A DNA stretch of 36,799 nt, from positions 1-36,799 of the forward strand of contig JAIXOQ010000021.1 of the NCBI GenBank assembly GCA_027486675.1, given 5' to 3'. The translations under genes and the position numbers were made by a program. This stretch comes from Pseudomonadota bacterium. Its GTDB lineage: Bacteria > Bdellovibrionota > UBA1018 > CAIMNF01. Positions 3,886 through 35,998 of the stretch are shown here, piece after piece; position 1 is the first letter of the stretch; every line of letters starts with the position of its first letter. The notes beneath the pieces are model-generated. The model worked only from the letters and a program-made list of their open reading frames with translations, had not been told where the DNA came from and searched no databases.

Positions 3886-3957
3886 AGGGCAACAGATCAG
3901 AAGGGATCGCAGTACTTTAAATGCTGTATGGGGGTTCGAATCCCCCTTGCTTAACCA
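3886..3957 (+). tRNA. tRNA-like element with UUA (ochre-reading) anticodon loop
   Basis: The 3' half is convincing. It has anticodon stem 3910-3914/3922-3926 (five pairs, one G-U), loop CTTTAAA with T33 giving anticodon TTA, T arm GGGGG-TTCGAAT-CCCCC (3930-3946), acceptor 3' strand TTGCTTA, discriminator A and encoded CCA (3955-3957). The 5' half is poor: a 4-bp D stem (GATC/GATC) with only a 6-base loop, C at position 8, and an acceptor 5' strand with G-U pairs and a mismatch at the first pair. Alternatively, AAGCAAGGGGG at 3847-3857 pairs perfectly over 11 bp with 3942-3952. It may be a suppressor tRNA, a decayed tRNA or a tRNA mimic. Confidence 0.4.
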
Positions 3958-13621: not shown

Positions 13622-13659
13622 AGCGGCCCCGATCGGTTGATCGGGACCGCTTTGTTTTA
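13622..13659 (+). terminator. Intrinsic terminator between convergent operons
   Basis: AGCGG (13622-13626) and CCCGATC (13628-13634) pair with GATCGGG (13639-13645) and CCGCT (13647-13651) around the loop GGTT, with one C-A mismatch. TTGTTTTA follows. It ends the rightward regulator operon. The leftward head operon ends at 13657 and would also meet this hairpin, though without a T tract on that side. Confidence 0.85.
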
Positions 13660-14151
13660 CTGGATAATGTCAGGATGGACACAGAAATCCGGTCCGGTAC
13701 CTTGCCAGGGCTGGTAAGGTGATTCCGGTGGTGTAGGAAAATCGGTACACTCAAAGCGCAAGCGCCACACTCGGTAATCAGATCGTTTATCCTTTTGAAA
13801 TCCACGGTACTGCAGCGTGGCAAATGAGGTGCCGGATAGGCCGGTAAGGGCAATCCGCACCGCTTCCACTGTGTCTATATGTTGCAGTGCCTGTTCGCTG
13901 AACGTGACGTCGGCTTTGCTGTGGGTACGCTCGCGCAGGCGAAAGCCAACGGCCACCTCAATCTGCACTACGCCTTCGGTGTTGGTCGGGCTTATATTGG
14001 TGTAATCACCCGACGTAAATGAAAACAAGGCACATGGCCATGATACCGGAGGCGGTTCTGCATCCAATTGTCCCAGGTCGTAATCGACCCACTTAATGGC
14101 TGTAACCTTGGTTGCAATGGTGTCCCGGATGGATTTAAACAGTGCTTTCAT
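13657..14151 (-). CDS. Head-tail joining or tail-terminator protein (candidate)
   Basis: This 164-residue protein has the features of small neck/terminator proteins: an N-terminal helix (MKALFKSIRDTIATKVTAIK), a beta strand IEVAVGFRLRERT, a helix ALQHIDTVEAVRIALTGLSG, and a final strand RVWRLRFECTDF. Proteins of this plan cap the tail tube or join it to the head. It is the last gene of the leftward head operon, after the G-like gene. Specific identity is not certain. Confidence 0.6.
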   Translation of the reverse strand: MKALFKSIRDTIATKVTAIKWVDYDLGQLDAEPPPVSWPCALFSFTSGDYTNISPTNTEGVVQIEVAVGFRLRERTHSKADVTFSEQALQHIDTVEAVRIALTGLSGTSFATLQYRGFQKDKRSDYRVWRLRFECTDFPTPPESPYQPWQGTGPDFCVHPDIIQ

Positions 14152-14192
14152 CGTGTGTAATTAATCGTTATTAAAAGCGTTTTCAGGCGGAT

Positions 14193-14627
14193 TTAAAGGT
14201 TCTTAAGATACTGGTCCAAAAAGCGCTGGGCTTTCTCCTTGATCTTTTTGTCCAGGTATGCTGATTGGCCTACAAACTGACGCTTGGGCATATCGAAACC
14301 TTTGCCTCGTCCGGCGCGCAAGCCTTCGTTGTGTACCTTTTCGTATTCCAAAGGAAACACGAAATCAACCTGGTTGCCGTGCGCTCTGCCTTTTAGTGCA
14401 TGACCTTTCAAAGTTCCCTTTTGCACCAACAATGCCCGCTTTGCTGGATTCTTGTCGGTTTTCTTACGCACTGGCCATTTGGCCAAACTGACATCCGTAA
14501 AGCCTTCATCTTTGAAGTTCTTTGCATGGAACTGTTCAGCCTCTACGGCAATAATATCGTTTGCGATGCGCCGCTCGATGTTGGGCAGTTCGGCAGCCAG
14601 CTTTGCGAAAAATTGTTGTGGATTCAT
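14193..14627 (-). CDS. Phage virion morphogenesis protein, Mu gpG-like
   Basis: This 144-residue protein starts with a helical segment (FFAKLAAELPNIERRIANDI), then NFKDEGFTDVSLAKWPVRKK, RALLVQKGTLKGHALKG, VHNEGLRAGRGKGFDMPKRQF and a basic C-terminal helix. The order W-PxxKK, L--KG-L, H--G, and P-RQF-G-S is the signature of the gpG / tail-completion family. It works in head-tail joining or tail assembly. It follows the F-like gene in the leftward operon, as in Mu (F then G). Confidence 0.75.
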   Translation of the reverse strand: MNPQQFFAKLAAELPNIERRIANDIIAVEAEQFHAKNFKDEGFTDVSLAKWPVRKKTDKNPAKRALLVQKGTLKGHALKGRAHGNQVDFVFPLEYEKVHNEGLRAGRGKGFDMPKRQFVGQSAYLDKKIKEKAQRFLDQYLKNL

Positions 14628-14650
14628 CTTAAGTCCTTATCTTTGTGGTG

Positions 14651-14704
14651 AGCCTTGTGCAAGTGGTCGGTTTGCTAACCGACAGGTAGCGCAGGGCTTT
14701 TTTT
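14651..14704 (+). terminator. Rightward intrinsic terminator inside the leftward head operon
   Basis: AGCCTTGTGC (14651-14660) pairs over ten positions (two G-U) with GCGCAGGGCT (14689-14698), enclosing a 7-bp hairpin GTCGGTT/AACCGAC (14666-14683). Seven T residues follow (14698-14704). The polarity is that of a plus-strand terminator, opposite to the genes around it. It lies between the F-like and G-like genes and touches the F-like stop codon. It may block antisense transcription from the converging operon or end a short antisense RNA. Confidence 0.6.
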
Positions 14705-15956
14705 ATGGGCCTGCAAAATCGGGTGCGGTATCGGTGATCGCATGTAAGCCGATCCGCTCCACGCCATCGTCATTGAGCCGCCGCCAAAAGTTGAAGTAGT
14801 ACTTTTCCTCCCCCAATTCGAGCAAATAGTAATACCAGTTGAGTACGCCCTGGTGTGCTCCTCGATCGGGCGCAACGCCCAGGTAGCGCAGTTTTTCACC
14901 ACTGATCAGTTGCAGCACATACAGCAACTGGTTGCGCCAGGCTGCCTGTCGGTGCGGCTTGCCGGTGATCGTTTTCACTTCGCCTCCAGTGATCGTGGCT
15001 GCTTGTGACATGCCCTGGTAGGTTTCGCTGAACGAGTCCACCAAGTTTTCTTTACTCCAATCCCGTACCTCATCCCTACTGATCGAGGCATGGAAGGCTT
15101 TAGACTGATCGTGCAATGCTTCACGATCGAGCGGTGATACTTTAAAGTATGGATGGTCCTCGTCAAATATCTTTGATGTTTTACCAGGATTATGCCGGAA
15201 CCCTGGAGGTATTTTTACCTCACTAAGATCCTCTCCAAAAGTCACAGGCTGATCAGTTTGAACCAGGAAACATCTGCATTCCCAACCATTCTTAGGAGCA
15301 TGTATATCCCAAAATGGATCATCAATAGCACGTATGACACCTTCAAGTGGGCGATGGCTATCTCGTACACGCTCATCATGAGCTGTTATATACCTAAGAT
15401 TTGGATACAGATCTTTTCGTTTTTCAAATTCTGCCCAACTTTCTGCTGCTTGTGCATTTCCTATGGTTGCCTGTAGTTCAGCCTTAAGCCATGTTTTATT
15501 ATGGCGTTTCATAATCCTTGCCGCCTCTTTATCCCAAGCGGCTCGGCTCAAGCCCTTGGCTTTCAATGCCCGTAATTCCTCGATCATGCGATGCTGCTTG
15601 TGTGCTGCAAAATCGCGCAAGTTTTGCTCGATGCGCTGAAACCTTTCCCACTCCGCAAGTGATGATGCTTCACTGAAACGCTTACCAAATCCGGCCTCTG
15701 CATGATTTCGAAACCTTGTAAAGTGTTCGAGCCACATGGCTTTATCGATGCGGTTGGGTAGTATGGTTTGATTCCATACGCCTTCCAAGAAATCCTTTTC
15801 TACCTGAGCCGATATTTTGCGCCACCGAATATCCAAGCCTTCAGCCAATAATACGGTGGTTGCCGTTCCGCATGTTGCGCAACTGCACCCTGGCGGATGT
15901 TCGAGGCCGTAGAGCGCGATCAGATCAATCCCGCGCTGCGCGCTACGGCTTAGGAC
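14703..15956 (-). CDS. Mu F-like head morphogenesis protein, probably made as a -1 frameshift extension of the portal
   Basis: The frame encodes a minor head protein of the Mu gpF / SPP1 gp7 family: a long helical N-terminal half and then LRYITAHDERVRDSHRPLEG, DDPFWDIHAPKNGWECRCFL near the middle. The first ATG/GTG/TTG codon is TTG at 15848, but the frame stays open upstream and encodes IDLIALYGLEHPPGCSC-TC, which looks like a genuine N-terminus with paired cysteines. No ATG, GTG or TTG exists between the preceding in-frame stop (near 15979) and 15848. The A AAA AAG heptamer at 15962-15956 in the portal gene leads by -1 slippage exactly into this frame. The 417 residues here would give an 843-residue portal fusion. 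An alternative is initiation at ATT, CTG or TTG. Confidence 0.8.
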   Translation of the reverse strand, partial: VLSRSAQRGIDLIALYGLEHPPGCSCATCGTATTVLLAEGLDIRWRKISAQVEKDFLEGVWNQTILPNRIDKAMWLEHFTRFRNHAEAGFGKRFSEASSLAEWERFQRIEQNLRDFAAHKQHRMIEELRALKAKGLSRAAWDKEAARIMKRHNKTWLKAELQATIGNAQAAESWAEFEKRKDLYPNLRYITAHDERVRDSHRPLEGVIRAIDDPFWDIHAPKNGWECRCFLVQTDQPVTFGEDLSEVKIPPGFRHNPGKTSKIFDEDHPYFKVSPLDREALHDQSKAFHASISRDEVRDWSKENLVDSFSETYQGMSQAATITGGEVKTITGKPHRQAAWRNQLLYVLQLISGEKLRYLGVAPDRGAHQGVLNWYYYLLELGEEKYYFNFWRRLNDDGVERIGLHAITDTAPDFAGP

Positions 15957-15962
15957 TTTTTT
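15907..15962 (-). promoter_or_regulatory. Candidate -1 programmed frameshift site, portal to F-like
   Basis: Reading on the minus strand: the slippery heptamer A AAA AAG (15962-15956, in phase with portal codons Lys-Lys), a 7-nt spacer that includes the portal stop TAA (15952-15950), then a stem-loop. The stem's 5' arm CCGTAGCGCG (15948-15939) pairs with CGCG-CT-CTACGG (15918-15907) over 10 bp with a 2-nt bulge and a 20-nt loop. This is the dnaX-type heptamer with a spacer and stem of the usual geometry. Confidence 0.7.
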
Positions 15963-17233
15963 CCAGTCTTGGGTTTGCCTTTAGGCTCATTAGTATTGGG
16001 CGGATCGGCTGGCTCTGTTTCTTCATCTTCCATCACTTCCCCATGCTCCGGTTTTGGGATCATGTATTTTTCATACCAGTAGTCCTCTGGTATAGGTACC
16101 ATGCCCGCAACCTTGATGTCAATATCCAGGCGTGCCGGCAGGCTCAATCCATCACCATCTTCGAAGGCAAAAACACCGCCTTCTACCTGGTAGCCAAGTC
16201 CTGCCAGGTATCGGGTCAGGTCTTCATTCAGAATTGACAATATAAACTCGCGATCATCCTTGTGCAGTTCATCCTGAGTTTTCATCTGCGTTTCGCTTTG
16301 CGCATACCCTGAATGTTTGGCCTCTGTGGTGGTCATGCTGTTCCCCAATATGGTCACGCTCATTTCCTCATTGCATGCCGCAATCAGAAAACGGAATATA
16401 TCGTTGCTGCTCGACCCGGCAGTGGGATTAAAGAATTCGAGTTTGGCATCTTCCGGAGCCACTACGTACCCTGCGGCTCCGGCCTGGCTCAGCGCCTGCT
16501 CCAGTATTTGACGGCTTGGCTCGTTGTTGTACGTTGCCCAACGAAAAGGCATACCGAACACCTCGGCAAATTCAGCCCAGTCGCCAAACCCTCCTCTTTT
16601 GAAGATTACATGTGGGCAGCACTCTAATATAAGTCCAAGATCATCTGGATCTCCTACCTCAATACAAAACCGATTGAGAGGATCCTGCCGATAAGGCAAG
16701 CCACTAATGTCATAGGCATTTTGTGTTACGATGCCGAATTTGGGCTTTACGTGTTTGCGAGGGATCAGGTTACTTACCCCTACTTCGGCGCTGCCTGGCG
16801 CTGGCCAGTATAACTCCATTAGGCTATGCCCCCAGAAGCGAGACTCCAACGACCAGCGCAAGAACTTTTTAAAGAACTTTTTACGGGTAAGATCTTTGAT
16901 GGCATCATCCACCTTTCCGTCTTTGTGGAAAGATATGGGCGTATTGGTGATCCTGGCGATGCGTTGATTGATAAGCTGCTTAAGCCGACCGTCCAAGAGG
17001 ATCTCTGTATATAGGTCGTACAAAAGTGAACGCTGTTGCGTTCTTTGTTCGGCAGCCATAAGAGCCAGTCGCCATTTCTGTATGTCCTGGCTTTGTCGTA
17101 CATTAGGACGAACCGTTACATGGTTGATCACCACGCCTTGTTGATCGGCAGATACTTTAGTGGTATCTTCGGTTTTTATGTCGACCGTTTCCATTTTAAG
17201 GCGACGGTATTTATCATTGATGGTCTCTGCCAT
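15950..17233 (-). CDS. Portal protein, Mu gp29-like (DUF935)
   Basis: This 427-residue protein follows the DUF935 plan: an N-terminal DIQKWRLALMAAEQRTQQRS, L-DL-TEILLDGRLKQLINQR, FLRWSLESRFWGHSLMELYW, a central FGMPFRWATYNNEPS, and a C-terminal STTTEAKH-type helix (ILGNSMTTTEAKHSGYAQSE) lining the channel. It forms the dodecameric DNA entry ring and binds the terminase encoded upstream. The ATG at 17233 is the natural start. Its last codons contain the A AAA AAG heptamer, so a fraction of ribosomes may read on into the F-like frame. A 130-bp gap separates it from the gp36-like gene. Confidence 0.88.
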   Translation of the reverse strand: MAETINDKYRRLKMETVDIKTEDTTKVSADQQGVVINHVTVRPNVRQSQDIQKWRLALMAAEQRTQQRSLLYDLYTEILLDGRLKQLINQRIARITNTPISFHKDGKVDDAIKDLTRKKFFKKFLRWSLESRFWGHSLMELYWPAPGSAEVGVSNLIPRKHVKPKFGIVTQNAYDISGLPYRQDPLNRFCIEVGDPDDLGLILECCPHVIFKRGGFGDWAEFAEVFGMPFRWATYNNEPSRQILEQALSQAGAAGYVVAPEDAKLEFFNPTAGSSSNDIFRFLIAACNEEMSVTILGNSMTTTEAKHSGYAQSETQMKTQDELHKDDREFILSILNEDLTRYLAGLGYQVEGGVFAFEDGDGLSLPARLDIDIKVAGMVPIPEDYWYEKYMIPKPEHGEVMEDEETEPADPPNTNEPKGKPKTGKKS

Positions 17234-17363
17234 TATAAACAGACTGTTTGAAATGCACTTAAATAAAACCTTTTGTTTGTTAAGGCGTGTATTCGTGCGC
17301 GGACGGTTTAAAAGCCTTCCACAGCGTCTTAAATAGCCTTAAAACTATATTCGGGTGTCGATC

Positions 17364-17771
17364 CTAAAAGCGGTTTGAACGCTTTGGAAGGCTCCCGTAA
17401 ACAATATGTGTTTGTTGGGTTACTTGCCGTCTTGGCAGATCATTGTAATGCTCTGTTTTTGAGGCCGACTTTAACCAGGCTACAGCACGGTTATATCGGG
17501 CTTGCCGGTCGGACACATCCTGCCCACTTTGCAGGCGAGCAACGATCAAGTAGATGGCAATATCACTACCAAGGTCAAGGATCAGGGCGTGACGGTTTGT
17601 TCCCGTCTTGCTGAAGATGGCGTCTACATCGAACGTATCAAACAGGTAGGTGCGCATTTCCGATTCAGCCGCGCTCATCGCCTGCGTGATAAGGGTATCG
17701 TCAGCCCTGGTTATTTCATCCAACTCGTCATCGAGTATTTTTACTAATAAATCTGCTTTCTGTAAAAACAT
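17364..17771 (-). CDS. Mu gp36-like protein (DUF1320), head-tail connector
   Basis: This 135-residue protein matches the gp36/DUF1320 pattern: FLQKADLLVKILDDELDEIT, DDTLITQAMSAAESEMRTYL, LILDLGSDIAIYLIVARLQS, RYNRAVAWLKSAS. The family resembles head-completion connector proteins of the gp6/gp15 type. In Mu it follows the capsid; here it sits between terminase and portal, a rearranged position. The start at 17771 lies one base after the terminase stop. A longer frame to 18044 runs inside the terminase gene and was rejected. Confidence 0.8.
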   Translation of the reverse strand: MFLQKADLLVKILDDELDEITRADDTLITQAMSAAESEMRTYLFDTFDVDAIFSKTGTNRHALILDLGSDIAIYLIVARLQSGQDVSDRQARYNRAVAWLKSASKTEHYNDLPRRQVTQQTHIVYGSLPKRSNRF

Positions 17772-17772
17772 A

Positions 17773-19287
17773 TCAGTATTTATTTTTAGATCGCTTTTCC
17801 TGATGAACCGTAATCGGTGCCATCTGGCGCAACTTGTTATTGATAATCCAAACGGCTCCTTCAACAGCATCTGGTCCGTCATCGTGAGCAGGTAAATTGG
17901 GTTCGATTGCCTTGAACTGTTCTTCCAGGCGCTGCATGTGCGGGTCATCCCGTTCATCTTCGTTGAGGATAAGTGATCCGCGTCGGTTGATCGGCTCCAG
18001 GTTGCCCTCGATGCGACTGAACTTATCCGGCTTTGCCCGATCATCCGGGCTTACGGCCAGTGTGCCCTCTGCCTTTTCCATGTTGCGCAGTGCGGGCATA
18101 AATACATCCTGATACCAGGCATCCTGGAATCCGTTGCATTCGACGTAGTTGTACAATTGGCTTCTATCATTGATATATGCCTTGTAGTCATACCACCACT
18201 TCAGCATGGTATTCAGCGTCGTTTGTTCCAGCCTGGCCTTAATGATGTAGTAATCGCCGTTAAGTTCGCCAACCAATGGAATGGCCTTGAAGTCATTGGT
18301 GCGGCTGTTTTTGTAACTCGCATCACAGTACGCAACCAAAAACCGGAACTTATTCAAGGGTGGCACTTTACCGTATTTAATATCCCGGAAAACAGATCCC
18401 TCATTGATCGGGTTATTGAAATACTCCTTTTGCCCGGAGGCATAGGAGATTTTCGATAGCATGTAATTGACCTCGGCAGCGCTGTAACGCTCTTTCCAAC
18501 TGGGGTTGCCCTTTTTGTCCAGGATATTGATTTGCTCGAAATCATCCGCTTTTTTGCTGGCTCTTACAACAATGCCATCTTTGGCGATGATGTTTCCAAC
18601 AATCACGAAGCGCTTTCGCCCTGATATGGACATGGTAGGCCAAAGTGCCTGTTCAATCCAGTCCCACTTCTTTTTCAGCCGTACCGGGTTGCGGGCTTCT
18701 TCATCGGTGTCTATATCATCGATGAGGATAAAGTCTGGACGCTTTTCTTCGTTGCGGCTACCGCGCGGTGATTGACCAGATCCGAGCGCCCTGAACGAGC
18801 AGCCATCTGCTGTGATAAACTTGCCGACCTCCCAACCACGCCAAGACTTTTGTTGTCCAAAATCATGCATGATCCTTGGATTGCTTTCCAACTGGATCAT
18901 CATGGGCATAAGCAACTCAGAGGCATTATCGTAGGAGTGCGATACCAGCAGCATGTTGAAAAGCCGACCATTAAACTTTTCAAACAGGGGAATAAACAAA
19001 CCAGCCGTGACTGATTTGGCATGTTCGCGCGCCCAGGCACGAACGATGTATATCTTATCGGAAGCGGCAATTTTCTTAGCAAAGTTTAAATGGAACTTTG
19101 CAAATGGAGCCGTTGCGTAATTGGGAAAATAGTACTGGCAAAATGCTTCAAAGTTCCCGAGCAGTTTTTTGATACGGGCTTGCTTTTCCTTATCCGTTTC
19201 ATTGAATGGAACGGGAATATCTCGCTCAACCGATTTTCGGTAGGCTTCCCAGCGCTGCATGGTTTGCTTATCCGTTATCTGGCTCAT
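17773..19287 (-). CDS. Terminase large subunit (Mu gp28-like)
   Basis: This 504-residue protein has an adenine-binding/Walker A-like region IVRAWAREHAKSV (residues 81-93), Walker B FILIDDID (186-193 with D190-D191) and an RNase H-like nuclease domain starting at VAYCDASYKNSRTND (D322). It ends with the C-terminal signature DDGPDAVEGA near residue 475. It cuts and translocates DNA into proheads; in Mu-like phages it starts from the left-end pac site and packages flanking host DNA. Its start overlaps the small-subunit stop (ATGA). Confidence 0.93.
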   Translation of the reverse strand: MSQITDKQTMQRWEAYRKSVERDIPVPFNETDKEKQARIKKLLGNFEAFCQYYFPNYATAPFAKFHLNFAKKIAASDKIYIVRAWAREHAKSVTAGLFIPLFEKFNGRLFNMLLVSHSYDNASELLMPMMIQLESNPRIMHDFGQQKSWRGWEVGKFITADGCSFRALGSGQSPRGSRNEEKRPDFILIDDIDTDEEARNPVRLKKKWDWIEQALWPTMSISGRKRFVIVGNIIAKDGIVVRASKKADDFEQINILDKKGNPSWKERYSAAEVNYMLSKISYASGQKEYFNNPINEGSVFRDIKYGKVPPLNKFRFLVAYCDASYKNSRTNDFKAIPLVGELNGDYYIIKARLEQTTLNTMLKWWYDYKAYINDRSQLYNYVECNGFQDAWYQDVFMPALRNMEKAEGTLAVSPDDRAKPDKFSRIEGNLEPINRRGSLILNEDERDDPHMQRLEEQFKAIEPNLPAHDDGPDAVEGAVWIINNKLRQMAPITVHQEKRSKNKY

Positions 19288-19718
19288 CGCTTCAACATTG
19301 ATTTGATGAATGAATCAAACAGCGTGACAACCTCGGCAGACTTTTCCGGAGCATGCGCGCGTACGAAGTCACAGAACTCCATGCCTACTTCTACCCGTTC
19401 GCCAATGTTGATTTCCGTTTCGAGGTTACGGATTGCTGCAGTCAATTTGGTAAGTACGTCGGCTTCTTTACTATCTGCCCAACCAACTTCCCTTTGGTCA
19501 ATACTGCTTGTGAGTTTTTCTATTTGCTCGTACAGTCTACCGACCTGTTCGCTTTTGGTCACGAGCAAGCTTTTACGAAGGCGCTCCCATCCACCTTCGT
19601 TTACCCATTTGGACATGGTTTGCTCCGATACCTCCGTGCGGGAAGCAACCTCTTTTTGTGTTAGGCGTTCCCGGACGTACAACAATTTTGCGAACTCTTT
19701 TTGCTGGTCTTTATTCAT
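19284..19718 (-). CDS. Terminase small subunit-like protein (gp27/DUF1804-like)
   Basis: This 144-residue protein has an N-terminal helix-turn-helix (AKLLYVRERLTQKEVASRTE, VSEQTMSKWVNEGGWERLRK) as in many small terminases and the DUF1804/gp27 family, followed by a helical coiled-coil region (QVGRLYEQIEKLTSSIDQRE) suited to oligomerisation. It recognises phage DNA for packaging. It is the first gene of the leftward operon. Confidence 0.82.
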   Translation of the reverse strand: MNKDQQKEFAKLLYVRERLTQKEVASRTEVSEQTMSKWVNEGGWERLRKSLLVTKSEQVGRLYEQIEKLTSSIDQREVGWADSKEADVLTKLTAAIRNLETEINIGERVEVGMEFCDFVRAHAPEKSAEVVTLFDSFIKSMLKR

Positions 19719-19889: not shown

Positions 19890-20894
19890 ATGAAGAGATT
19901 TCGCGTACACACCGAGGATTTGAATGCATACGGCTTCTGGGTAATGACTGAAGGGTTGGATACATCCGACTTTGAGCAAAACCCAATATGCCTATACAAT
20001 CACATCCAGGCATGGCGCGGCACCGAAGATGAGATATTGCCGATTGCGATTTGGGAAGATTTGAAAAAGGAAGGTGGGACCATGAGCGCCGTTCCGAAGT
20101 TTGATATGGATGATGAATTCGCCGCTAAGATTGCCAACAAGGTTGAAAAGGGCTATTTGCGGGCTTGCAGTATCGGTATCAGTATTTTGGAATGGAGTGA
20201 AGACCCCGCTAACCTTAAGCCAGGACAAACACGTCCAACGGTTGTAAAATCAAGGCTTCGCGAAATCTCAATCTGTGATATTCCGGCGAACAAAAACGCA
20301 GTGACGTTTTACGACCAATCCGGTGATATAATCAATTTAAGTGACAATGCCTCCCTGGAGAAACTTCCGGTACTCAAACTAACTCAGTCTAATTCCATGA
20401 AAGAACTTGAAATCCTGGCGCTTAGCCTTGGCATTCGCAATGATGCATCCTTATCTGATATTCAGGAAAAAATTGCTGATAACAAAGCAAAGGCAGCAGA
20501 AAACGACCTTTTAAAGGCCGAATTGAAACTGATTAAGGACCAGGCCAAGCAGGTGCAACTTGCAGAATCCAAAAGCCTGCTGGATGCAGCGCTTACCGAA
20601 CAACGGATTAACGCTGATCAGCGCGCGCAATTCGAAAAGTTGTTTGAGTCCAATCATGATGCTGCCAAAGTGGCATTGGCATCCATTCCAAAGCCGGTTT
20701 CTCCGCTCAATTTCATTGCGCCTCAAGGCGGTCCAAATGACGGCAAATTTACCTACCAGGGTAAAACCTTCAGCCAATTGAGCAAAGAAGATCCTGCTAT
20801 GCTGGAAATGCTTCGCAACAACGATATGGCAACCTTCAGCGCCTTGTACAAGGCTGAATTTGGCCGCGAGTACAAAGTCACCGATAAGTCTTAG
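19890..20894 (+). CDS. Prohead protease fused to scaffold domain (Mu gpI-like)
   Basis: This 334-residue protein has an N-terminal prohead serine protease of the U35/HK97 type: the His of LYNHIQAW (H38), Ser of LRACSIGIS (S94), and the conserved strand LREISICDIPANKNA. Residues ~170-245 are a charged coiled coil, and the C-terminus (KFTYQGKTFSQLSKEDPAML) resembles Mu-type scaffold tails. It guides capsid assembly and then processes itself and scaffold. In Mu the scaffold Z is translated from an internal start within I; an ATG at 20397 (M170, MKELEILALSLG) at the domain border could do the same here. Confidence 0.88.
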   Translation: MKRFRVHTEDLNAYGFWVMTEGLDTSDFEQNPICLYNHIQAWRGTEDEILPIAIWEDLKKEGGTMSAVPKFDMDDEFAAKIANKVEKGYLRACSIGISILEWSEDPANLKPGQTRPTVVKSRLREISICDIPANKNAVTFYDQSGDIINLSDNASLEKLPVLKLTQSNSMKELEILALSLGIRNDASLSDIQEKIADNKAKAAENDLLKAELKLIKDQAKQVQLAESKSLLDAALTEQRINADQRAQFEKLFESNHDAAKVALASIPKPVSPLNFIAPQGGPNDGKFTYQGKTFSQLSKEDPAMLEMLRNNDMATFSALYKAEFGREYKVTDKS

Positions 20895-20943
20895 TCGGTT
20901 ATCAATCATAAATTACTTCATCAGCAATATCAATATAAAAGCA

Positions 20944-21843
20944 ATGGCTGTAAATAAAGAATTGTGGCGGCCCGACATCATTGAGGCCCTTTTCAAATCG
21001 AATGTGTGGATGAACCGCTCATTCAATGCGGACGAATATGTGGTAGGTGCCCGCATCGTACACATCCCGCAGGCGGGAGCGCCCAGCAATGTTGAACGCA
21101 ACCGCGTCAATTTGCCAGCGCCAATCGTGAAACGCGGCGATACCGATATCACCTATGTGCTGGATGAATATACCAGCGACCCACGCTTGATCACGGACAT
21201 CGAAAAAAAGGAGTTGTCGTATGATAAGCGTCAATCAGTGATCCGTGACGACACTGGAATTATGATGCAGGTATCGGGCGATAATATGTTGTATAACTGG
21301 GCGAAAAACGTCCCCTCCACCTATAAAGTGGTTACAACTGGTACATCCGCTACGGGTACTGCTCCAGGTGCCACTGGAAACCGCAAAATTGTCACAGAAG
21401 CCGATATCCGCACCGCTCAGACCCAGCTCAATAAATTGAACGTGCCCAAAGATGGTCGCGTAATGATTTTGCCTTCAGAGTTCCTGAACCAGTTGATGAG
21501 CGATAATAACCTGAAGTATGCTTTTCAACAGGTTGTAAACTTGCGGGAAGGTAGTGTAGGACGCTTGTGGGGATTCGATTTGTATGAGCGCTCTACCGTG
21601 CTGATTGAAACCACCGGTGGTACACTCAAACTGCCAGAAGCTGCATCTGCAACAGATGACAATGAGTGTGCGATATTCTACCAGGAAAACATGGTTGAGC
21701 GTGCATTGGGCGAGGTGAACATGTTCGACAACCCCGGCAAGGCGGAATACTATGGCGACATTATATCCTTCCTGGTGCGCTTGGGCGGTCGTAATCGCCG
21801 CGCCGACAACGTGGGTGTAGGCCTCATTTGTGCGCGTCCATAA
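20944..21843 (+). CDS. Major capsid protein
   Basis: This 299-residue protein lies directly after the protease/scaffold gene. Its N-terminus (ELWRPDIIEALFKSNVWMNR) and the run VGARIVHIPQAG, DEYTSDPRLITDIEKKELSY, RVMILPSEFLNQLMSDNNLK, GRLWGFDLYERS are of the kind found in HK97-fold capsids of Bacteroidota Mu-like phages. Length is near Mu gpT (305). The start at 20944 follows an A-rich leader; the longer frame from 20860 overlaps the protease gene. Confidence 0.85.
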   Translation: MAVNKELWRPDIIEALFKSNVWMNRSFNADEYVVGARIVHIPQAGAPSNVERNRVNLPAPIVKRGDTDITYVLDEYTSDPRLITDIEKKELSYDKRQSVIRDDTGIMMQVSGDNMLYNWAKNVPSTYKVVTTGTSATGTAPGATGNRKIVTEADIRTAQTQLNKLNVPKDGRVMILPSEFLNQLMSDNNLKYAFQQVVNLREGSVGRLWGFDLYERSTVLIETTGGTLKLPEAASATDDNECAIFYQENMVERALGEVNMFDNPGKAEYYGDIISFLVRLGGRNRRADNVGVGLICARP

Positions 21844-21905
21844 TAGGTATTTGAAGTTCGTACCTGGTTAAAAAACAAATCATTTCACAGTAAAAAACTG
21901 CCATT

Positions 21906-22238
21906 ATGAACGGCGTTAAATATCCATTTGGCAAGGCTGAAGTTCAGTCTATTGCACCCGCAGCAACGATTGCAGTTGCAGTTTCTGACCAACTGTCTTA
22001 CGTCAAAATCAATGCAGTTTTGACGGCTGCAACCACAATCAATATCACCCCGACCGGCGTGTTGGATGGAGCCCTGTTGTTCGTGGAGGTTCCATGTACA
22101 ACTGCTTACGATGTAACGTTTGGCAGCACCTATGTAACCAGCACTGGTGTGACTGGAACGGCAAGCAAAACCAAAGTCGCATCTTTCATCTATGTCAACG
22201 GTAAGTACGTTCAAACTGCGGTAAACACCATCAACTAA
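21906..22238 (+). CDS. Small beta-rich structural protein, possible head decoration
   Basis: This 110-residue product is Ala/Thr/Val-rich and predicted mostly beta (VAVSDQLSYVKINAVLTAAT, TINITPTGV, SFIYVNGKYVQTAVNT). It directly follows the capsid gene, where many phages encode decoration or head-fibre proteins. No specific family is recognised. Confidence 0.6.
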   Translation: MNGVKYPFGKAEVQSIAPAATIAVAVSDQLSYVKINAVLTAATTINITPTGVLDGALLFVEVPCTTAYDVTFGSTYVTSTGVTGTASKTKVASFIYVNGKYVQTAVNTIN

Positions 22239-22239
22239 A

Positions 22240-22473
22240 ATGGCACAGGCGACTGTCTCAAACCTGACTGAGCGTGAATTGCTCATCCTCTTGAATGATA
22301 AGGTGGATCGGTTGGAGATGGAAGTCCAGGCGAATCGGGCAACTGCTGACAAGATCAATCAACTTGAAATCCGGCTTATGAAGCAGGAAGTTACCTTCAA
22401 GATTTGGGGTACGGTGATTGGGTTTGTAGCTGGTGTGGGTGGAAGTGTAATCAGTCAAATCATAAAATTATAA
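22240..22473 (+). CDS. Small coiled-coil membrane protein, XhlA-like holin candidate
   Basis: This 77-residue protein has a heptad-rich segment (LNDKVDRLEMEVQANRATAD, INQLEIRLMKQEV) followed by one C-terminal membrane helix (IWGTVIGFVAGVGGSVISQI). This is the plan of XhlA/haemolysin-type phage proteins that assist holins. It starts one base after the previous stop. A role in lysis is inferred. Confidence 0.6.
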   Translation: MAQATVSNLTERELLILLNDKVDRLEMEVQANRATADKINQLEIRLMKQEVTFKIWGTVIGFVAGVGGSVISQIIKL

Positions 22474-22769
22474 TGAAAAACTGGAATAACGTTTTTGACA
22501 ATTATCCGGATGTCGATCAAATCTACATCGTTGATGATATGCCATTTCTCCGCGCCGATCAGGCACAAGCGCACGGTGCTGCCACTGGCAAACCAGTAGA
22601 GCCTGTGTCCCGATTTGTTCAGGATCTTGCTACCGATGACCTGTCTGAGGCCGAAAAAGATGCTGCAGATGAGAAGGCTGCTGCTGAAAAGGCTGCTGCT
22701 GATATAGATGCCTCAGTCCTGTCTAATACAGCTACAGTACCTGCCAAAAAGAAATCCGCTAAGAAATAA
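22473..22769 (+). CDS. Small hypothetical protein with Ala/Lys-rich tail
   Basis: This 98-residue product starts MKNWNNVFDNYPDVDQIYIV and continues DDMPFLRADQAQAHG; residues ~55-80 are an acidic Ala-rich helix (DLSEAEKDAADEKAAAEKAA) and the end is basic (PAKKKSAKK). It is probably cytoplasmic. The ATG overlaps the previous stop. The function is unknown; gene order places it with capsid-proximal accessory genes. Confidence 0.65.
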   Translation: MKNWNNVFDNYPDVDQIYIVDDMPFLRADQAQAHGAATGKPVEPVSRFVQDLATDDLSEAEKDAADEKAAAEKAAADIDASVLSNTATVPAKKKSAKK

Positions 22770-22806
22770 GCGGTTAAATATTCACCTGTTCAAACTTACA
22801 CCAACC

Positions 22807-23322
22807 ATGAACAAGCAATTTGCCTTGTACCCCAAGATCGCCATTTTGGTGATTCTTATGGGCTTGCTCGCCCAAAAAATCTATATCGCATTTAGCGATT
22901 ATAAATCCGGCCAAAAAACTGAAATGGTGAAAACCATTGATGGATATCCAATGGCCACCACCGATACCCAAACCGCAGCTGTTGCGCATCCTGATGAAAC
23001 CACTCCGGTTCAAGGTGATAGCAAGCATGCTATTGCACCGAATTCAAAAGCGGCCCCGAATACCTTTAAGAATACGGAGTGGCGCGCATTGAATGCCCAG
23101 GTCCCTGATTCGACTGACACGGGTGATTCATCTACATCAGGCCTAAGTGCGATTGATTTTATCAGACAAAACTTCGTTACCCTTATTTGGGCATTAGTTG
23201 CGCTGGTAGAAGTAATTGTGCGGCTTACGCCAACTCAAAAAGACAATTCGATCCTGTCATTCATTACCGAATGGCTTACCAAGTTGCTTCCGAACCGACG
23301 CGCGGGTGGTGGTACGTTTTAG
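22807..23322 (+). CDS. Two-helix membrane protein, holin-like candidate
   Basis: This 171-residue protein has an N-terminal membrane segment (KIAILVILMGLLAQKIYIAF), a long polar Thr/Ala-rich middle, and a second hydrophobic segment near residues 130-150 (FVTLIWALVALVEVIVRL), then a basic C-terminus. Two membrane helices next to the XhlA-like gene suggest part of a holin system. The long hydrophilic linker is unusual for a holin. The start at 22807 was chosen over the frame start at 22708, which overlaps the previous gene. Confidence 0.6.
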   Translation: MNKQFALYPKIAILVILMGLLAQKIYIAFSDYKSGQKTEMVKTIDGYPMATTDTQTAAVAHPDETTPVQGDSKHAIAPNSKAAPNTFKNTEWRALNAQVPDSTDTGDSSTSGLSAIDFIRQNFVTLIWALVALVEVIVRLTPTQKDNSILSFITEWLTKLLPNRRAGGGTF

Positions 23323-23379
23323 GACGTACCATTTACCCCTCGGACTTCATCATAGTTAATCATTTAAAAATCGGGAAAA

Positions 23380-24561
23380 ATGGCACTGCCAAACGTATCG
23401 ATACAACTTACCAACGGGGGCTTGGGTCAAATCGCGGCGAATGAAGACGGCGTGGTTGGCATGGTGCTAAATGGCGTGGCTGCAACTTCCTTGGCTTTAG
23501 GCACCTCTAAACAGGGGTTTAGCCTGCAAGAGTTTGTGGATGTCGGGATTAATCCAGCTTATGACACTACAAACACCGTGAAAGTTTACCGCCAAATCAA
23601 AGAGTTCTATGACGAGGCCGGTGAAGGCGCGGAACTTTGGATCATGTTGGTAAGCCAGGCAACGAACATCAATAGTATTCTGGACAAAACCCAAAATTTT
23701 GCCAAGAAGTTATTGACCGATGCGGGTGGCCGAATTCGTTTGCTTGCCGTTTCCCGTAATCCAGCCGGTGGCTATACTCCAAGTACAACTGCGAACCAAA
23801 TTGATTTGGATGTGATCAATGCTATCACAACCGGACAAGCACTTGCAGATGACATGCTTGCTGCATTTACACCTGTTCGATTTCTTATTGAAGGTTACGC
23901 TTATACTAATACCACTGCTGGGCTTGTGAACCTTCGCACCCTGACAAAGCCAAACGTGGCTGTGCTCATTGGTAACAGCGAAAGCGGAGCGCGATCGGCG
24001 ATTGGGCTTTTGCTTGGCCGATTGGCGGCGATCCCGGTGCAGCGTAATCCAGGTCGTGTGAAAGATGGCTCTTTGGCGATCACTGCGGCATACCTGGGCA
24101 CCTCAACCTTAGAGTCCGTTGAAAGTCAGGCTACGGCATTGGATACCAATGGTTTCATTACCCTACGTCGGTTCCCTGGTCGCGCTGGTTATTACTTCAG
24201 CGATGATCCAACTGCGGATTTGGCTACTTCCGATTATAATGCACTTGCAAGGGGGCGTGTAATTGATAAGGCTGTACGCCTTGCCTATACCACCTTCGTA
24301 AATGAAATACAGGACGAGGTACTTATTGACAGTGCCGGAAAAATTGAAGTAAGCCGTGCAAAGTATTATCAAACGCTGATTCAGTCAGCAATTGATACTT
24401 CAATGACTGCAGAGGGTGAAATCAGTAGCGTAAATGTATTTGTAGATCCGCAGCAAAACGTATTATCAACTGGCAGAATTTGCGTGAATCTGGAAATCAT
24501 TCCGGTTGGATATGCAAAATCTATTTTAGTGAAACTCGGATTTAATAACCCCGCAAATTAA
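23380..24561 (+). CDS. Contractile tail sheath protein (DUF2586-like)
   Basis: This 393-residue protein begins MALPNVSIQLTNGGLGQIAA and has the sheath-type core (WIMLVSQATNINSILDKTQN, PNVAVLIGNSESGARSAIGL) and a C-terminal domain GFITLRRFPGRAGYYFSDDP, DKAVRLAYTTFVNEIQDEVL, INLEIIPVGYAKSI-like end. The pattern fits DUF2586, a sheath family of Bacteroidota phages. It shows that the virion has a contractile tail. The tube gene follows after 5 bp. Confidence 0.88.
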   Translation: MALPNVSIQLTNGGLGQIAANEDGVVGMVLNGVAATSLALGTSKQGFSLQEFVDVGINPAYDTTNTVKVYRQIKEFYDEAGEGAELWIMLVSQATNINSILDKTQNFAKKLLTDAGGRIRLLAVSRNPAGGYTPSTTANQIDLDVINAITTGQALADDMLAAFTPVRFLIEGYAYTNTTAGLVNLRTLTKPNVAVLIGNSESGARSAIGLLLGRLAAIPVQRNPGRVKDGSLAITAAYLGTSTLESVESQATALDTNGFITLRRFPGRAGYYFSDDPTADLATSDYNALARGRVIDKAVRLAYTTFVNEIQDEVLIDSAGKIEVSRAKYYQTLIQSAIDTSMTAEGEISSVNVFVDPQQNVLSTGRICVNLEIIPVGYAKSILVKLGFNNPAN

Positions 24562-24566
24562 AGGCA

Positions 24567-24986
24567 ATGGCATTCAACTCTAAACAATATCAGTTTTCCG
24601 ACGTGTCGGTAATTATCCTTGGCCGTAAGATTGAAGGTTTTCGGGGGGTTAAATACAAAGTATCCGTGGAAAAGGAGCCTTTGTTTGGCCGTGGCAAAAA
24701 AGCGCTCAGTATCCAATCGGGTAATGAGAAAATCGAAGGCGAATTAATGATGCTTCAAAGCGAAGTGATTGCCTTAACCACTGCCGTAAAAGCGGCCTTA
24801 CCAACGGGTAAATTAACGGATGTTTCATTTGATATCGTTGTTTCCTATGGTGATGGAACCACGGCTTCTACGGATATAATCCGCAGTGCCGAGTTCACTG
24901 ATTACGAAAAAGGCCTCCAAAACGGGGATAAGTTCATGGAGATTTCGATGCCGTTTTTGGCGCTAGATATCGACGAAAATAAATAG
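24567..24986 (+). CDS. Tail tube protein
   Basis: This 139-residue protein follows the sheath gene and has the beta-sandwich character of gp19/FII-type tubes: FSDVSVIILGRKIEGFRGVK, KALSIQSGNEKIEGELMM, VSFDIVVSYGDGTTASTDII, FMEISMPFLALDI. Sheath followed by tube is the standard order. It is followed by a terminator hairpin, allowing high-level expression of the genes upstream. Confidence 0.85.
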   Translation: MAFNSKQYQFSDVSVIILGRKIEGFRGVKYKVSVEKEPLFGRGKKALSIQSGNEKIEGELMMLQSEVIALTTAVKAALPTGKLTDVSFDIVVSYGDGTTASTDIIRSAEFTDYEKGLQNGDKFMEISMPFLALDIDENK

Positions 24987-25038
24987 GAAAGGGTGTGGCC
25001 TTTGGAGGGGCTATGGGTTAATTTTCATTTGTGTTTCA

Positions 25039-25070
25039 GGGGGCAGGCAAAAAACACCTGCTCCCTTTTT
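25039..25070 (+). terminator. Intrinsic terminator after the tail tube gene
   Basis: GGGGGCAGG (25039-25047) pairs with CCTGCTCCC (25057-25065), with one G-U, around a 9-base A-rich loop, followed by TTTTT. Being inside the late operon, it probably gives partial termination, so that sheath and tube are made in excess over chaperones and tape measure. Confidence 0.75.
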
Positions 25071-25083
25071 CAAAAAAAACAAT

Positions 25084-25626
25084 ATGGCGACGGTTCACAA
25101 AAATTCACAAGGCTCATTTGTAGTCGTTTTTTCGGACGAAACGACTGCAACATTTTCAAAGCCTTCTACAAAACACCTGGGCTTGGCCCTTACCATCATT
25201 CGAAAAGATACATTGGGGATTGCTGATGTATTGGTCGATAACTGCCTATTAAGCGGTGATAAAGATGAATTAAAGGCAAATTTGGCCTATGCGCGCCAAC
25301 TGTCTGATGTTGCAGATGATGTTTTTGGCAAGGTGAAAGCCACACTTACCTATGAACAAATTGATGGTCAGCCGGTGAGTAAAGTAACATTCGAAGATGG
25401 CCACTTCTTCGTACTCCGAAAATGCGATCGCGCAACGTACTCAACCAGTCGGGCCAAGCAACAGCAAAACCCACTTGCCGGACTCAAGCATATCATTTCG
25501 AATTGTCTCATTTTCGATTTGAATACGGTCACAGACTTACTTGAGGAGCCAGGCTATTTGCTTGGTTTTTCCGAAGTGGCGGATGAATACCTGAATGATA
25601 CTGGCAAGCGCCTGGGAAACTCATAG
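25084..25626 (+). CDS. Tail assembly chaperone (lambda G-like)
   Basis: This 180-residue protein lies between tube and tape measure. It starts MATVHKNSQGSFVVVFSDET and ends in GFSEVADEYLNDTGKRLGNS. The last codons contain G GGA AAC in phase, so some ribosomes shift to -1 and add the 54-residue extension described next. Such G/GT pairs coat the tape measure during tube polymerisation. The family call rests on position and the frameshift site. Confidence 0.78.
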   Translation: MATVHKNSQGSFVVVFSDETTATFSKPSTKHLGLALTIIRKDTLGIADVLVDNCLLSGDKDELKANLAYARQLSDVADDVFGKVKATLTYEQIDGQPVSKVTFEDGHFFVLRKCDRATYSTSRAKQQQNPLAGLKHIISNCLIFDLNTVTDLLEEPGYLLGFSEVADEYLNDTGKRLGNS

Positions 25627-25654
25627 ACGCTTCTGATGGCAGCCCGGAAGCGTC
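25614..25654 (+). promoter_or_regulatory. -1 programmed frameshift site of the tail chaperone
   Basis: The heptamer G GGA AAC lies at 25614-25620 in phase with the upstream frame, followed by a 5-nt spacer and the stem-loop GACGCTTC (25626-25633) / GAAGCGTC (25647-25654), 8 perfect pairs with a 13-base loop. It closely parallels the lambda G-T site (G GGA AAG). Confidence 0.85.
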
Positions 25655-25784
25655 GCCCATTGAATATTACAATACCATGTTGCAGTATTATTTGCACATA
25701 CCTGATCCCGATAGTTTGCCGGATGAGATATGGGCATTGAAAGTTAAGCAATTGGAACACATTCGAAAAAGCGAGCAACAATGA
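25620..25784 (+). CDS. -1 frame extension of the tail chaperone (lambda T-like)
   Basis: Starting at CTC 25620 after the slip, the frame runs 54 codons (LIDASDGSPEASPIEYYNTM, then LQYYLHIPDPDSLPDEIWAL, ending RKSEQQ) to TGA 25782-25784, which overlaps the tape-measure ATG at 25781. The fusion would be 233 residues. An in-frame ATG at 25678 exists but leaves only 35 residues. The short hydrophobic/acidic composition fits T-type extensions that bind the tape measure and tube. Confidence 0.75.
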   Translation, partial: LIDASDGSPEASPIEYYNTMLQYYLHIPDPDSLPDEIWALKVKQLEHIRKSEQQ

Positions 25785-27430
25785 GTGGATTCACCTATTT
25801 TATCAAAGCAGATGTACAAGGCCGTTCGAGTGTCGAACAGTTGGCAGGCGCAGCCGGTCAAGCCGATACTGCTTTGAACAAATTGGGTGCCGACGCGCAT
25901 GTTGCCGGTGCTGCTGCTGATAATGCTGGTCGGCGCGGATCTGAATCTTTTGGATCGTTTAAGTCCACCCTCATTGGTTTGCTTGCTCAAATCGGATTGG
26001 TAACAACGGCGATGGCCAGCATTAATACTGCGGTAGATACGAAGTCGCTGAACAACGCAATCATCTTTACTGGAGGCGAGCAAGGTGTTCAAAATCTGGC
26101 AAATGTGAACCAGGCAATTGCTGACCTTAAGTTGCCACAAAAGGAATCGCTGGAAGGTTTTAAAACACTTTCAGGTGGCCTTATGGGCACTGGTATAACA
26201 GCAGAGCAACAGATGGATATCTTTAAAGGTGTCTCTGAAGGTATGCTCGTTATGGGTGGCACTGCGGATGAAACGAAAGGAGCATTATTAGCCCTGTCGC
26301 AAATGGCCAGCAAGGGAACCGTATCGGCTGAAGAATTAAAGGGTCAGTTAGGTGAACGGCTACCAGGAGCATTTAATATCGCAGCCAAGGCAATGGGTGT
26401 AAGCCAGACGGCCCTTATGAAAATGATGGAACAGGGTGATCTGATGGCGAAGGACTTCTTGCCAAAGTTCGCGGCTGAACTTCATAAAACATTCGGACCC
26501 GGTGTGCAAGAGGCGCTTGATAGCCCCAGGGCAAAGTTCAACGAAATGAGCAATGCCATTTATAATCTAAAAAACACGTTGGGCAATGAGTTGATGCCAA
26601 CTGCCACTGGTTTGATAAGCAACTTTTTAATCCCTGCAGCAAAGTGGATTGGTGACAATATCAATGTGCTTGGCCTGCTTGCTGTTGGAATTGGTGGCGT
26701 TTGGGCGGCCTTGAAAATCTACGCTGCTGCTGTTGAAATATCGGCATTTGTTACGGGCGGATTTGCCACATCCATTACGGCTTTAACTGATGCATTTTAT
26801 GCAAATCCGATCGGTTTTACGATTGGTGCCATCGTGGCTCTAAGCGCGGTTGTCATTTATGCCTGGAACAAATTTGAAGGGTTTAGATCAACTGTAGTTG
26901 GTATCTGGAGTGTTATTCAAGAATTCGGAAGTATCATATACGACTATGCAATTGCGCCTCTTATGGCGCTGGGTAAAACACTGATCGGTGTATTTACATT
27001 CGATCCGACAATGATCGCACAGGGCATTGCTGACGGTGTGAAGGCTGTGGAAAACATTGCTAATTCAGCAAGCATTGGCGAGCGAATGGGTAGTGCATTC
27101 ACGAATGGTTGGAATAGTCAAATAGAAGGTCTTAAAGATCCACGTTCTGCATTTGAAAATGCGCGTGATGATCGGCAAGGCGCTTTGGCCAATGCAAAGT
27201 TTTCTAAGCCAGGGGCTTCTAAAGACCCAAATGCAGACAAGGCTAAGAAGATCTCTGATACAGTAGCCGGTGGTGGTCAAAAGAATATTACAATCAATGT
27301 AAATAAGTTGGTCGAGTCCATCACTTTGAACACTACCAACATGAAAGAAGGGGCGGATGAAATAACCGACATAATCACTAAAACGCTTCTTCAGGTGCTT
27401 AACTCCGCTAATCAGGTCCAGGTAAACTAA
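25781..27430 (+). CDS. Tape measure protein
   Basis: This 549-residue protein has a tape-measure domain in its first half (SLNNAIIFTGGEQGVQNLAN, GTVSAEELKGQLGERLPGAF, NIAAKAMGVSQTALMKMMEQ), the TIGR02675-type core. Two to three hydrophobic stretches follow in the middle (LGLLAVGIGGVWAALKIYAA; TIGAIVALSAVVIYAW), as usual for tape measures. The small size implies a short tail. Its ATG overlaps the stop of the chaperone extension, and its stop overlaps the next ATG. Confidence 0.9.
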   Translation: MSGFTYFIKADVQGRSSVEQLAGAAGQADTALNKLGADAHVAGAAADNAGRRGSESFGSFKSTLIGLLAQIGLVTTAMASINTAVDTKSLNNAIIFTGGEQGVQNLANVNQAIADLKLPQKESLEGFKTLSGGLMGTGITAEQQMDIFKGVSEGMLVMGGTADETKGALLALSQMASKGTVSAEELKGQLGERLPGAFNIAAKAMGVSQTALMKMMEQGDLMAKDFLPKFAAELHKTFGPGVQEALDSPRAKFNEMSNAIYNLKNTLGNELMPTATGLISNFLIPAAKWIGDNINVLGLLAVGIGGVWAALKIYAAAVEISAFVTGGFATSITALTDAFYANPIGFTIGAIVALSAVVIYAWNKFEGFRSTVVGIWSVIQEFGSIIYDYAIAPLMALGKTLIGVFTFDPTMIAQGIADGVKAVENIANSASIGERMGSAFTNGWNSQIEGLKDPRSAFENARDDRQGALANAKFSKPGASKDPNADKAKKISDTVAGGGQKNITINVNKLVESITLNTTNMKEGADEITDIITKTLLQVLNSANQVQVN

Positions 27431-28035
27431 TGGCAGCTCAATTCGACATATCATCTTTGTTTCGGCAGGCATTCGGCTTAGGCCGTGGTGTGCCTTATGA
27501 TGCAAGTCGAGTGAATCAGCAGGAGTTTACAAAAGCTCCCAAGTTTCCGGATGCTTTGTCTGGCGATAATTTAGAGGGTAATGAGTTTGTAAATGTTCGC
27601 AGCGCGATTTCGGCAAATCTGCCTACGGGTAAACCGATTTTTATGCCAGTCAAAATTGGCGATTTTGTTTTGCCCAACGAACCGTCGATCAGTTTTGTAT
27701 CGAGAAAGAACATTGTATCGACTCCATTGACCGGATCGACCAGGCGCGGAACGGTAAAGGAACTGATAAACATTGAAGATTGGGTGATTACCATTCGCGG
27801 TATTGCCATCAATTTTGACAGCAAAAACTTCTATCCGGAAGACCAGGTAAAAGGCTTAAATGACCTATACAATAAGAATGAAGCATTGCCTATCCAGTGT
27901 GCTTTGACAAGTCTTCTTGGTATTTATCGGGTTGTAATTCGTGAGTTTCAATTGCCGGAAATGGTGGGTATTCAACATGCACAGGCTTATCAGTTTGTGC
28001 TTGAAAGTGATGAAGATTTCATTTTGGAATTATAA
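27430..28035 (+). CDS. DUF6046-like baseplate or tail protein
   Basis: This 201-residue protein has a low-complexity N-terminus and a beta-rich core: IFMPVKIGDFVLPNEPSISF, VKELINIEDWVITIRGIAIN, NKNEALPIQCALTSLLGIYR, GIQHAQAYQFVLESDEDFIL. The layout resembles DUF6046 and the DNA-circularisation/LysM-type tail proteins placed between the tape measure and hub. It probably links tube to baseplate hub. Starts and stops overlap both neighbours. Confidence 0.65.
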   Translation: MAAQFDISSLFRQAFGLGRGVPYDASRVNQQEFTKAPKFPDALSGDNLEGNEFVNVRSAISANLPTGKPIFMPVKIGDFVLPNEPSISFVSRKNIVSTPLTGSTRRGTVKELINIEDWVITIRGIAINFDSKNFYPEDQVKGLNDLYNKNEALPIQCALTSLLGIYRVVIREFQLPEMVGIQHAQAYQFVLESDEDFILEL

Positions 28036-29012: not shown

Positions 29013-29511
29013 TAATAACCAAGACTTACACAGTGCATTGCACAAATTTGTAAAGGACCGCACCTCAATTGCTGTTTTTCCGGCAGTTGTAAAGGTTTTT
29101 AATGACGATTTCAACACGGTCGATGTTGAAGATAACGACGGCAATATGCTGTTCGAGGTTATGTTGGCATCGAATGTAGGCTATGGCGTAAGCCTGTATT
29201 ATAAGCCCACGATCGGATCGACGGTATTTGTAGCGGATGTTGGCGCATCAGAGGAACGATACGTTGTCGTGGCTTACGCTGAGTGCGATCTTGTCCAGGT
29301 ACAGGTTGGTGCTACCGAATTGATTATTGATGAAAACGGGGTGAAAGTTGGCAATGGCTTGGATACTTTGAAATCGGCACTTGATGACCTTATACTTCAA
29401 ATAAAACTAATTACTGTCACATCAGCTGCACCCGGATCACCCACATCGGTTCCAATTAACGTTGCGGCATTTGATGCCATTAAGACACGTATAGACAGCC
29501 TTTTGCAATGA
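29005..29511 (+). CDS. Baseplate spike protein (gpV / Mu gp45-like)
   Basis: This 168-residue protein begins with an OB-fold-like region (TSIAVFPAVVKVFNDDFNTV, YYKPTIGSTVFVADVGASEE, RYVVVAYAECDLVQVQVG) followed by a short repeat-like beta segment (ELIIDENGVKVGNG) and a C-terminal helix. This is the plan of the membrane-piercing spike. It follows the hub gene, as in Mu. Confidence 0.78.
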   Translation: MADNNQDLHSALHKFVKDRTSIAVFPAVVKVFNDDFNTVDVEDNDGNMLFEVMLASNVGYGVSLYYKPTIGSTVFVADVGASEERYVVVAYAECDLVQVQVGATELIIDENGVKVGNGLDTLKSALDDLILQIKLITVTSAAPGSPTSVPINVAAFDAIKTRIDSLLQ

Positions 29512-30273: not shown

Positions 30274-30277
30274 TGTA

Positions 30278-32666: not shown

Positions 32667-32670
32667 ACCG

Positions 32671-35990: not shown

Positions 35991-35998
35991 ACAACATC

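Follow-up and report, generated by a model that had tools for sequence, protein, structure and literature searches.

Among the structural genes of phages, those for tail chaperones and for a few capsid proteins are known to use programmed slippage. The frameshift in the tail assembly chaperone, found in tailed phages such as lambda (G/GT), was reportedly described by Xu, Hendrix and Duda in 2004. A frameshift in the major head protein of Lactobacillus phage A2 (Garcia et al. 2004) is cited in a review on frameshifting (PMC5009743). According to this review, in E. coli dnaX the ribosome slips on A AAA AAG and a sole tRNA-Lys is present, and a 9-nt run suffices for slipping of the bacterial RNA polymerase in vivo, as in Thermus dnaX (PMC5009743). 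In SPP1, the portal draws few copies of gp7, the namesake of the F-like family, into the procapsid, and gp7 supports infection (PMC6316719). In the Microbacterium phage clusters EA3, EA5, EA8 and EB, the portal is fused to MuF (PMC7302621). In PRFect, MuF-like genes that are found as fusions elsewhere are classed with the 'false positives', and the portal junction is not analysed (PMC10885494). In the accessible parts of the frameshifting review (PMC5009743) and of the GeneTack survey (PMC3711429), the portal is not mentioned. We found no portal/MuF frameshift or slippage site in the open-access literature searched; an earlier note on this DNA had regarded the arrangement as probably undescribed.

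We analysed the junction of a Mu gp29-like portal gene and an F-like minor head gene in a stretch of DNA of 36,799 nucleotides, here called the window. Both genes were recognized by profile matches above the curated cut-offs, with 235.9 bits against 23.9 for the portal (PF06074), and 57.2 against 29.6 bits (PF04233) and 44.9 against 39.65 bits (TIGR01641) for the core of F. The C-terminus of the window F gave no convincing match to a known domain, and a PDB fold search with the F model gave no match. The full-length portal-F model is poor (pLDDT 65.5, pTM 0.38) and places the slip site within a predicted disordered linker. A gp36-like adaptor gene lies on the minus strand as well, together with terminase, portal and F. 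The head module of the window is divergent, with terminase, portal, F and neck genes at 13657-19718 on the minus strand and protease, major head protein and tail genes at 19890-36607 on the plus strand. The features of the junction are collected in Table 1.

Table 1. Features of the portal/F junction and neighbouring genes in the window
Feature	Position	Strand	Evidence
Terminase large subunit	17773-19287	(-)	
Portal gene, Mu gp29-like, zero-frame product	15950..17233	(-)	427 aa; PF06074 Portal_Mu E=1e-69; phrog_113 portal
In-phase slippery heptamer A AAA AAG (portal codons AAA AAG)	15956..15962	(-)	sequence; A AAA AAR in 7/7 window-clade members
Portal stop TAA, one sense codon (TCC) 3' of the heptamer	15950..15952	(-)	sequence
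Hairpin, putative stimulator	15906..15949	(-)	outer stem GCCGTAG 15949-15943 with CTACGGC 15912-15906, plus inner stem
F-like minor head protein, -1 frame from stop to stop	14703..15980	(-)	frame limits, translation
F-frame part 5' of any ATG/GTG/TTG, S-R-S...L-Y-G...C-x-C-x-x-C	15849..15956	(-)	conserved
TTG, first conventional start of the F frame	15846..15848	(-)	internal to the conserved protein, residue 38
Phage_Mu_F / SPP1 gp7-like core domain of F	15264..15557	(-)	PF04233 E=3.5e-15

The portal ORF ends with GGA AAA AAG TCC TAA. The F frame opens at 15980, right after a TAA at 15983-15981, and ends with the stop codon at 14705-14703. The earlier note had placed an in-phase A AAA AAG at 15962-15956 and had stated that a slip of -1 leads into an F frame free of ATG, GTG and TTG up to the TTG at 15848; inspection of the sequence gave the same sequence, phase and coordinates and the same frame. 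Translation of F after the slip runs from 15956 to 14706 and adds 417 aa to 426 portal residues, which is the 843-residue portal-F product calculated before. The stem described in the earlier note was also found, but an additional pair, G15949-C15906, shortens the spacer between heptamer and hairpin from 7 to 6 nt (TCCTAA).

Assuming that these elements work together, portal and F would be translated as a single unit that contains a programmed -1 slip. The majority of ribosomes would read AAG TCC and terminate at the TAA, which yields the 427-aa portal. Some would pause at the hairpin 6 nt downstream, slip by -1 on A AAA AAG and enter the F frame, thereby making the 843-aa portal-F. A few of the twelve subunits of the portal ring would then be hybrid, and the slip rate would set the number of F domains at the portal vertex. 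F might act within the head as SPP1 gp7 does, and if only some portal subunits carried it at their C-terminus, it would be fixed in place as well as in number. The conserved trait would be the making of both forms, portal and portal-F. It is very likely that a programmed -1 slip between portal and F yields portal plus portal-F in the window; that slippage occurs, and at which rate, we infer from sequence.

Viewed singly, the site in the window could be chance. The host genome (2.7 Mb) contains 17 copies of the pattern A AAA AAG, one codon and TAA, and a similar number of a reversed control pattern (15). The hairpin has a minimum free energy of -22.1 kcal/mol and is among the lowest 2% of folding-energy windows of its own locus, but 20 of 200 shuffled sequences fold equally well (z -1.23). 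Because the heptamer of the window is not rare and the stem is not exceptional by shuffling, the case for a slip site rests on comparison, by which the arrangement greatly exceeds chance. Three features of a frameshift cassette are present in the window, namely an in-phase X XXY YYZ in the overlap, an RNA structure about 5-9 nt downstream that is under selection and a conserved -1 coding frame that lacks its own start.

Single-protein searches with the window F returned almost nothing close, and profiles were needed. To collect relatives, an alignment of five F proteins was used on viral contigs, species genomes and phage records. Profiles built for this analysis then located the portal and F ORFs, resulting in 145 adjacent pairs, of which 125 form the non-redundant set after clustering of F at 85% identity. 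A phylum-wide genome search with A1 contributed one addition (G073). Loci were termed 'no-start' if the first ATG, GTG or TTG of F lies more than 20 nt past the portal stop. An in-phase XXXYYYZ is present in the short overlap at every one of the 55 non-redundant no-start loci whose F is in the -1 frame; the density of such heptamers elsewhere in these portals would lead one to expect 4.4. None of the 16 loci that have F in the +1 or zero frame and a start at the portal stop carries one. By frame, there are 55 no-start loci in -1 versus 3 in +1 (L036, L136 and L148); L136 is a broken locus and the other two contain A9-A10 runs. The position of F in the +1 frame beside these runs fits polymerase slipping in the opposite direction or an error in homopolymer length during sequencing. 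The heptamers of the -1 loci are of the types A AAA AAA/G, U UUU UUC and A AAU UUU/C, and the geometry of the window (-13: heptamer, one codon, stop) recurs in most of the U UUU UUC and A AAU UUU relatives. The arrangement is present in isolate genomes, including Flavobacterium, Chryseobacterium, Elizabethkingia, Winogradskyella and Riemerella, and in the sequenced isolates Peternella_1 and TCUEAP3. Heptamer, spacer and stem, whose conservation in relatives the earlier note had proposed to examine, were all found to be kept, and the invariable presence of a heptamer at -1 loci without a start supports its portal-F slippage reading.

In GenBank, the F proteins of Peternella_1 (QQV91569.1; L007:3022) and of Elizabethkingia phage TCUEAP3 (UFK27504.1; L319:2995) start internally to the conserved protein, and the true F frame of both phages extends back to the slippery run at the portal end. 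In Flavobacterium phage FPSV-S1 (L006:3795-4709), a gene for a Dcm-type methylase lies directly 3' of F.

The alignment of the F relatives begins at the slip site. In 29 relatives, Tyr17 is invariant and Cys25 nearly so, and both residues lie 5' of the TTG start at residue 38. The codons upstream of 15848, for which the earlier note had suggested a plausible N-terminus, encode conserved protein. Between the window and its four closest relatives, the pN/pS of the no-start segment, which is short, is 0.27-0.49; it is near 1 in some distant pairs. Substitutions in close pairs are mostly at the third base, for example 19, 13 and 51 at positions 1, 2 and 3 between L102 and L104. The RNA shows a constraint of its own. 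In the window clade (n=7), all 5 conserved amino-acid columns within the stem arms use a single codon, versus 7 of 85 elsewhere (Fisher p=1.8e-5), and third-base identity is 0.87 in the stem arms versus 0.40 elsewhere. The outer stem is invariant in all seven members, a synonymous constraint without covariation. Judged by these substitution patterns, the F protein is under purifying selection and the RNA stem is under selection. For the whole U6 class, MAFFT with RNAalifold gave no consensus structure, because the loop lengths differ. Position-wise pair tallies were used instead of RNAalifold; they are derived from individual folds and are thus not an independent test of covariation.

A separate F could also be produced by coupled reinitiation near the portal stop, at the non-canonical ATT 15929 or CTG 15923, or from the TTG at 15848. 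Separate F genes whose ATG overlaps or adjoins the portal stop are found in other clades, and in the proteobacterial and Firmicute Mu-like phages examined (D108, JBD26, vB_RhkS_P1 and FP_Mushu), the start of F overlaps in the ordinary way and a heptamer is absent. Homologues with an ATG and without the heptamer, named in the earlier note as a case against slippage, therefore exist, but only in the separate-gene clades of the tree. F need not be covalently attached, because some of these separate-gene relatives do well without fusion. On the other hand, reinitiation leaves unexplained the phase of the heptamer, the spacing of the hairpin and the use of the same site in fusions, and the contrast between no-start loci (55/55 with the heptamer in phase) and separate-start loci in other frames (0) argues against it. 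The TTG is probably not used as the start of F, since the conserved Tyr17 and Cys25 would be lost. Taken together, independent initiation of F in the window seems improbable compared to the programmed slip.

The slip itself could be made by the ribosome or by the RNA polymerase, and the loci fall into two groups in this respect. Short heptamers are followed by a strong hairpin 5-6 nt downstream. Compared with the other windows of the same locus, the folding energy ranks within the lowest 5% at 26 of 26 U6 loci, at 4 of 5 loci of the A3U3 type and at 9 of 13 of the A6-7 type, but at only 3 of the 30 loci with A9-A11, mostly exactly A10. The junctions, 26 kb in total, contain 46 homopolymers of at least 9 nt, versus one in 273 kb of other portal/F sequence. 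Based on the hairpins of each class and on the slipping data in PMC5009743, the window is read as a case of ribosomal frameshifting, and the A10 class probably uses polymerase slippage. The host of the window has one tRNA-Lys, with anticodon UUU, among 42 tRNA places in a genome that is 95% complete. We count this in favour of slipping, because in E. coli a single tRNA-Lys has been associated with slipping on A AAA AAG (PMC5009743). A weak tRNA-like match (37 bits, Rfam tRNA) is located in the prophage at 3886-3954 of the window on the plus strand and is not called by ARAGORN.

Transcriptional slippage could in principle also generate the fusion of the window. The 30 relatives with A9-A11 and without hairpin, the efficient slipping of 9-nt runs in bacteria (PMC5009743), a T10 in L112 and the +1-frame A-run loci L036 and L148, which fit two-way slipping, make this process likely in relatives. 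In the window, however, the run is only A6, below the approximately 9 or more of a transcriptional slippage element; all seven cassette members of the clade have A6-A7, and their hairpin is constrained. For the window, we therefore regard slipping of the polymerase as very unlikely and favour the ribosomal -1 slip. An error in sequencing or assembly, or a fusion gene that decayed by a frameshift, can hardly be the explanation: the site is a homopolymer and part of the relatives are MAGs, but the same arrangement recurs at 55 non-redundant loci that include isolate genomes, Peternella_1 and TCUEAP3, the no-start segment is under purifying selection, and no-start loci are 55 in -1 versus 3 in +1.

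At 17 non-redundant loci, portal and F are joined in one frame. The junction of 16 of them carries a run of A6-A10 or T10, and the remaining one (L124) carries T TTT TTC. In many of these in-frame fusions, a stop codon follows shortly in the -1 frame. Slipping at such a site would yield the portal alone. P. gingivalis phage007a, with an annotated 854-codon 'portal', and L323 contain U UUU UUC with a hairpin within the fused frame. The fusion of L318 (PP754929.1) has T TTT TTC at portal-frame codon 423, followed by the GC-rich hairpin GGCCCCG...CGGGGC, and L323 has T TTT TTC with a hairpin similar to it. In the tree of portal plus F, the fusion, slip and separate states interconvert (label changes: fusion 11, separate 7).

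The cassette can be found by DNA alone. A U6-type query, TTTTTTC-GAN-TAR-GCCCC...GGGGC (TTTTTTCGANTARGCCCC-N4-22-GGGGC), was run against 2.9 million viral contigs and gave at least 120 matches. All 120 listed matches lie at the end of a portal and the start of an F frame; both genes were recognized at 114 of these, and at 6 one partner was truncated, too short or unrecognized. With the window-type query AAAAAANNNNTRAGCCGTAG...CTACGGC, 5 matches were obtained, 5 of 5 at portal/F. Plasmids searched by DNA gave no match.

It seems likely that slippage determines how many MuF domains the portal ring carries in Bacteroidota Mu-like phages, and that the production of both forms is conserved while device and polarity are exchanged. 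The devices would be ribosomal (three heptamer types with a hairpin) or polymerase-based (A10/T10), and the polarity would flip between a fusion made by slipping and a truncation made by slipping. The wide occurrence of the site, the exchange of mechanism and the inverted polarity within fusions all extend the reading of the earlier note. If true, this would explain how a few-copy protein reaches the one portal vertex, and it predicts mixed portal rings in which the twelvefold symmetry is broken. A CdiA_C domain, a toxin domain of contact-dependent inhibition, was found at the C-terminus of F in 16 of 29 relatives, for example in the C-terminal third of F in L002, L007 and L119 (the profile match is to PDB 4g6v). 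The portal-F of these relatives would be a portal-MuF-toxin hybrid, and slippage may meter the dose of this toxin-like domain where F carries one. Our data also imply systematic misannotation, as F is called from internal starts in Peternella_1 and TCUEAP3 and the junction is taken for two genes or for one 'portal'. Two DNA signatures (heptamer, stop, hairpin) permit direct searches, and the slip-site hypothesis can now be tested in cultured phages.

Programmed slippage has precedents among phage morphogenesis genes; what appears to be new is its use in this gene pair, together with the exchange of devices and the presence of two polarities. Like lambda G/GT, the portal/F junction combines a conserved -1 slip in a morphogenesis operon with a minor extended product. 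It differs in concerning head and portal genes, and thus another assembly stage, and in having a whole minor head protein as the extension. The window resembles E. coli dnaX (tau/gamma) in A AAA AAG, a downstream hairpin and two nested products, and the A10 relatives resemble Thermus thermophilus dnaX, where the polymerase slips on a run of 9 (PMC5009743). The inverted-polarity fusions come especially close to dnaX, with the full-length product in frame and the short form made by the slip. In contrast to dnaX, the slip in the window leads to the long form and concerns a virion structural pair instead of a polymerase subunit, and portal/F junctions also use U UUU UUC and A AAU UUU. In phage A2, a -1 frameshift likewise extends a head component, but the extended protein is the major capsid and the extension is not a MuF protein (PMC5009743). 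The Microbacterium clusters also unite portal and MuF-like function in one polypeptide; these actinophage fusions are described as simple in-frame fusions and a slippage site is not reported (PMC7302621). In SPP1, the gp7-family protein is likewise held by the portal, gp6, in few copies within the head, but gp6 and gp7 are encoded by separate genes and bind non-covalently (PMC6316719).
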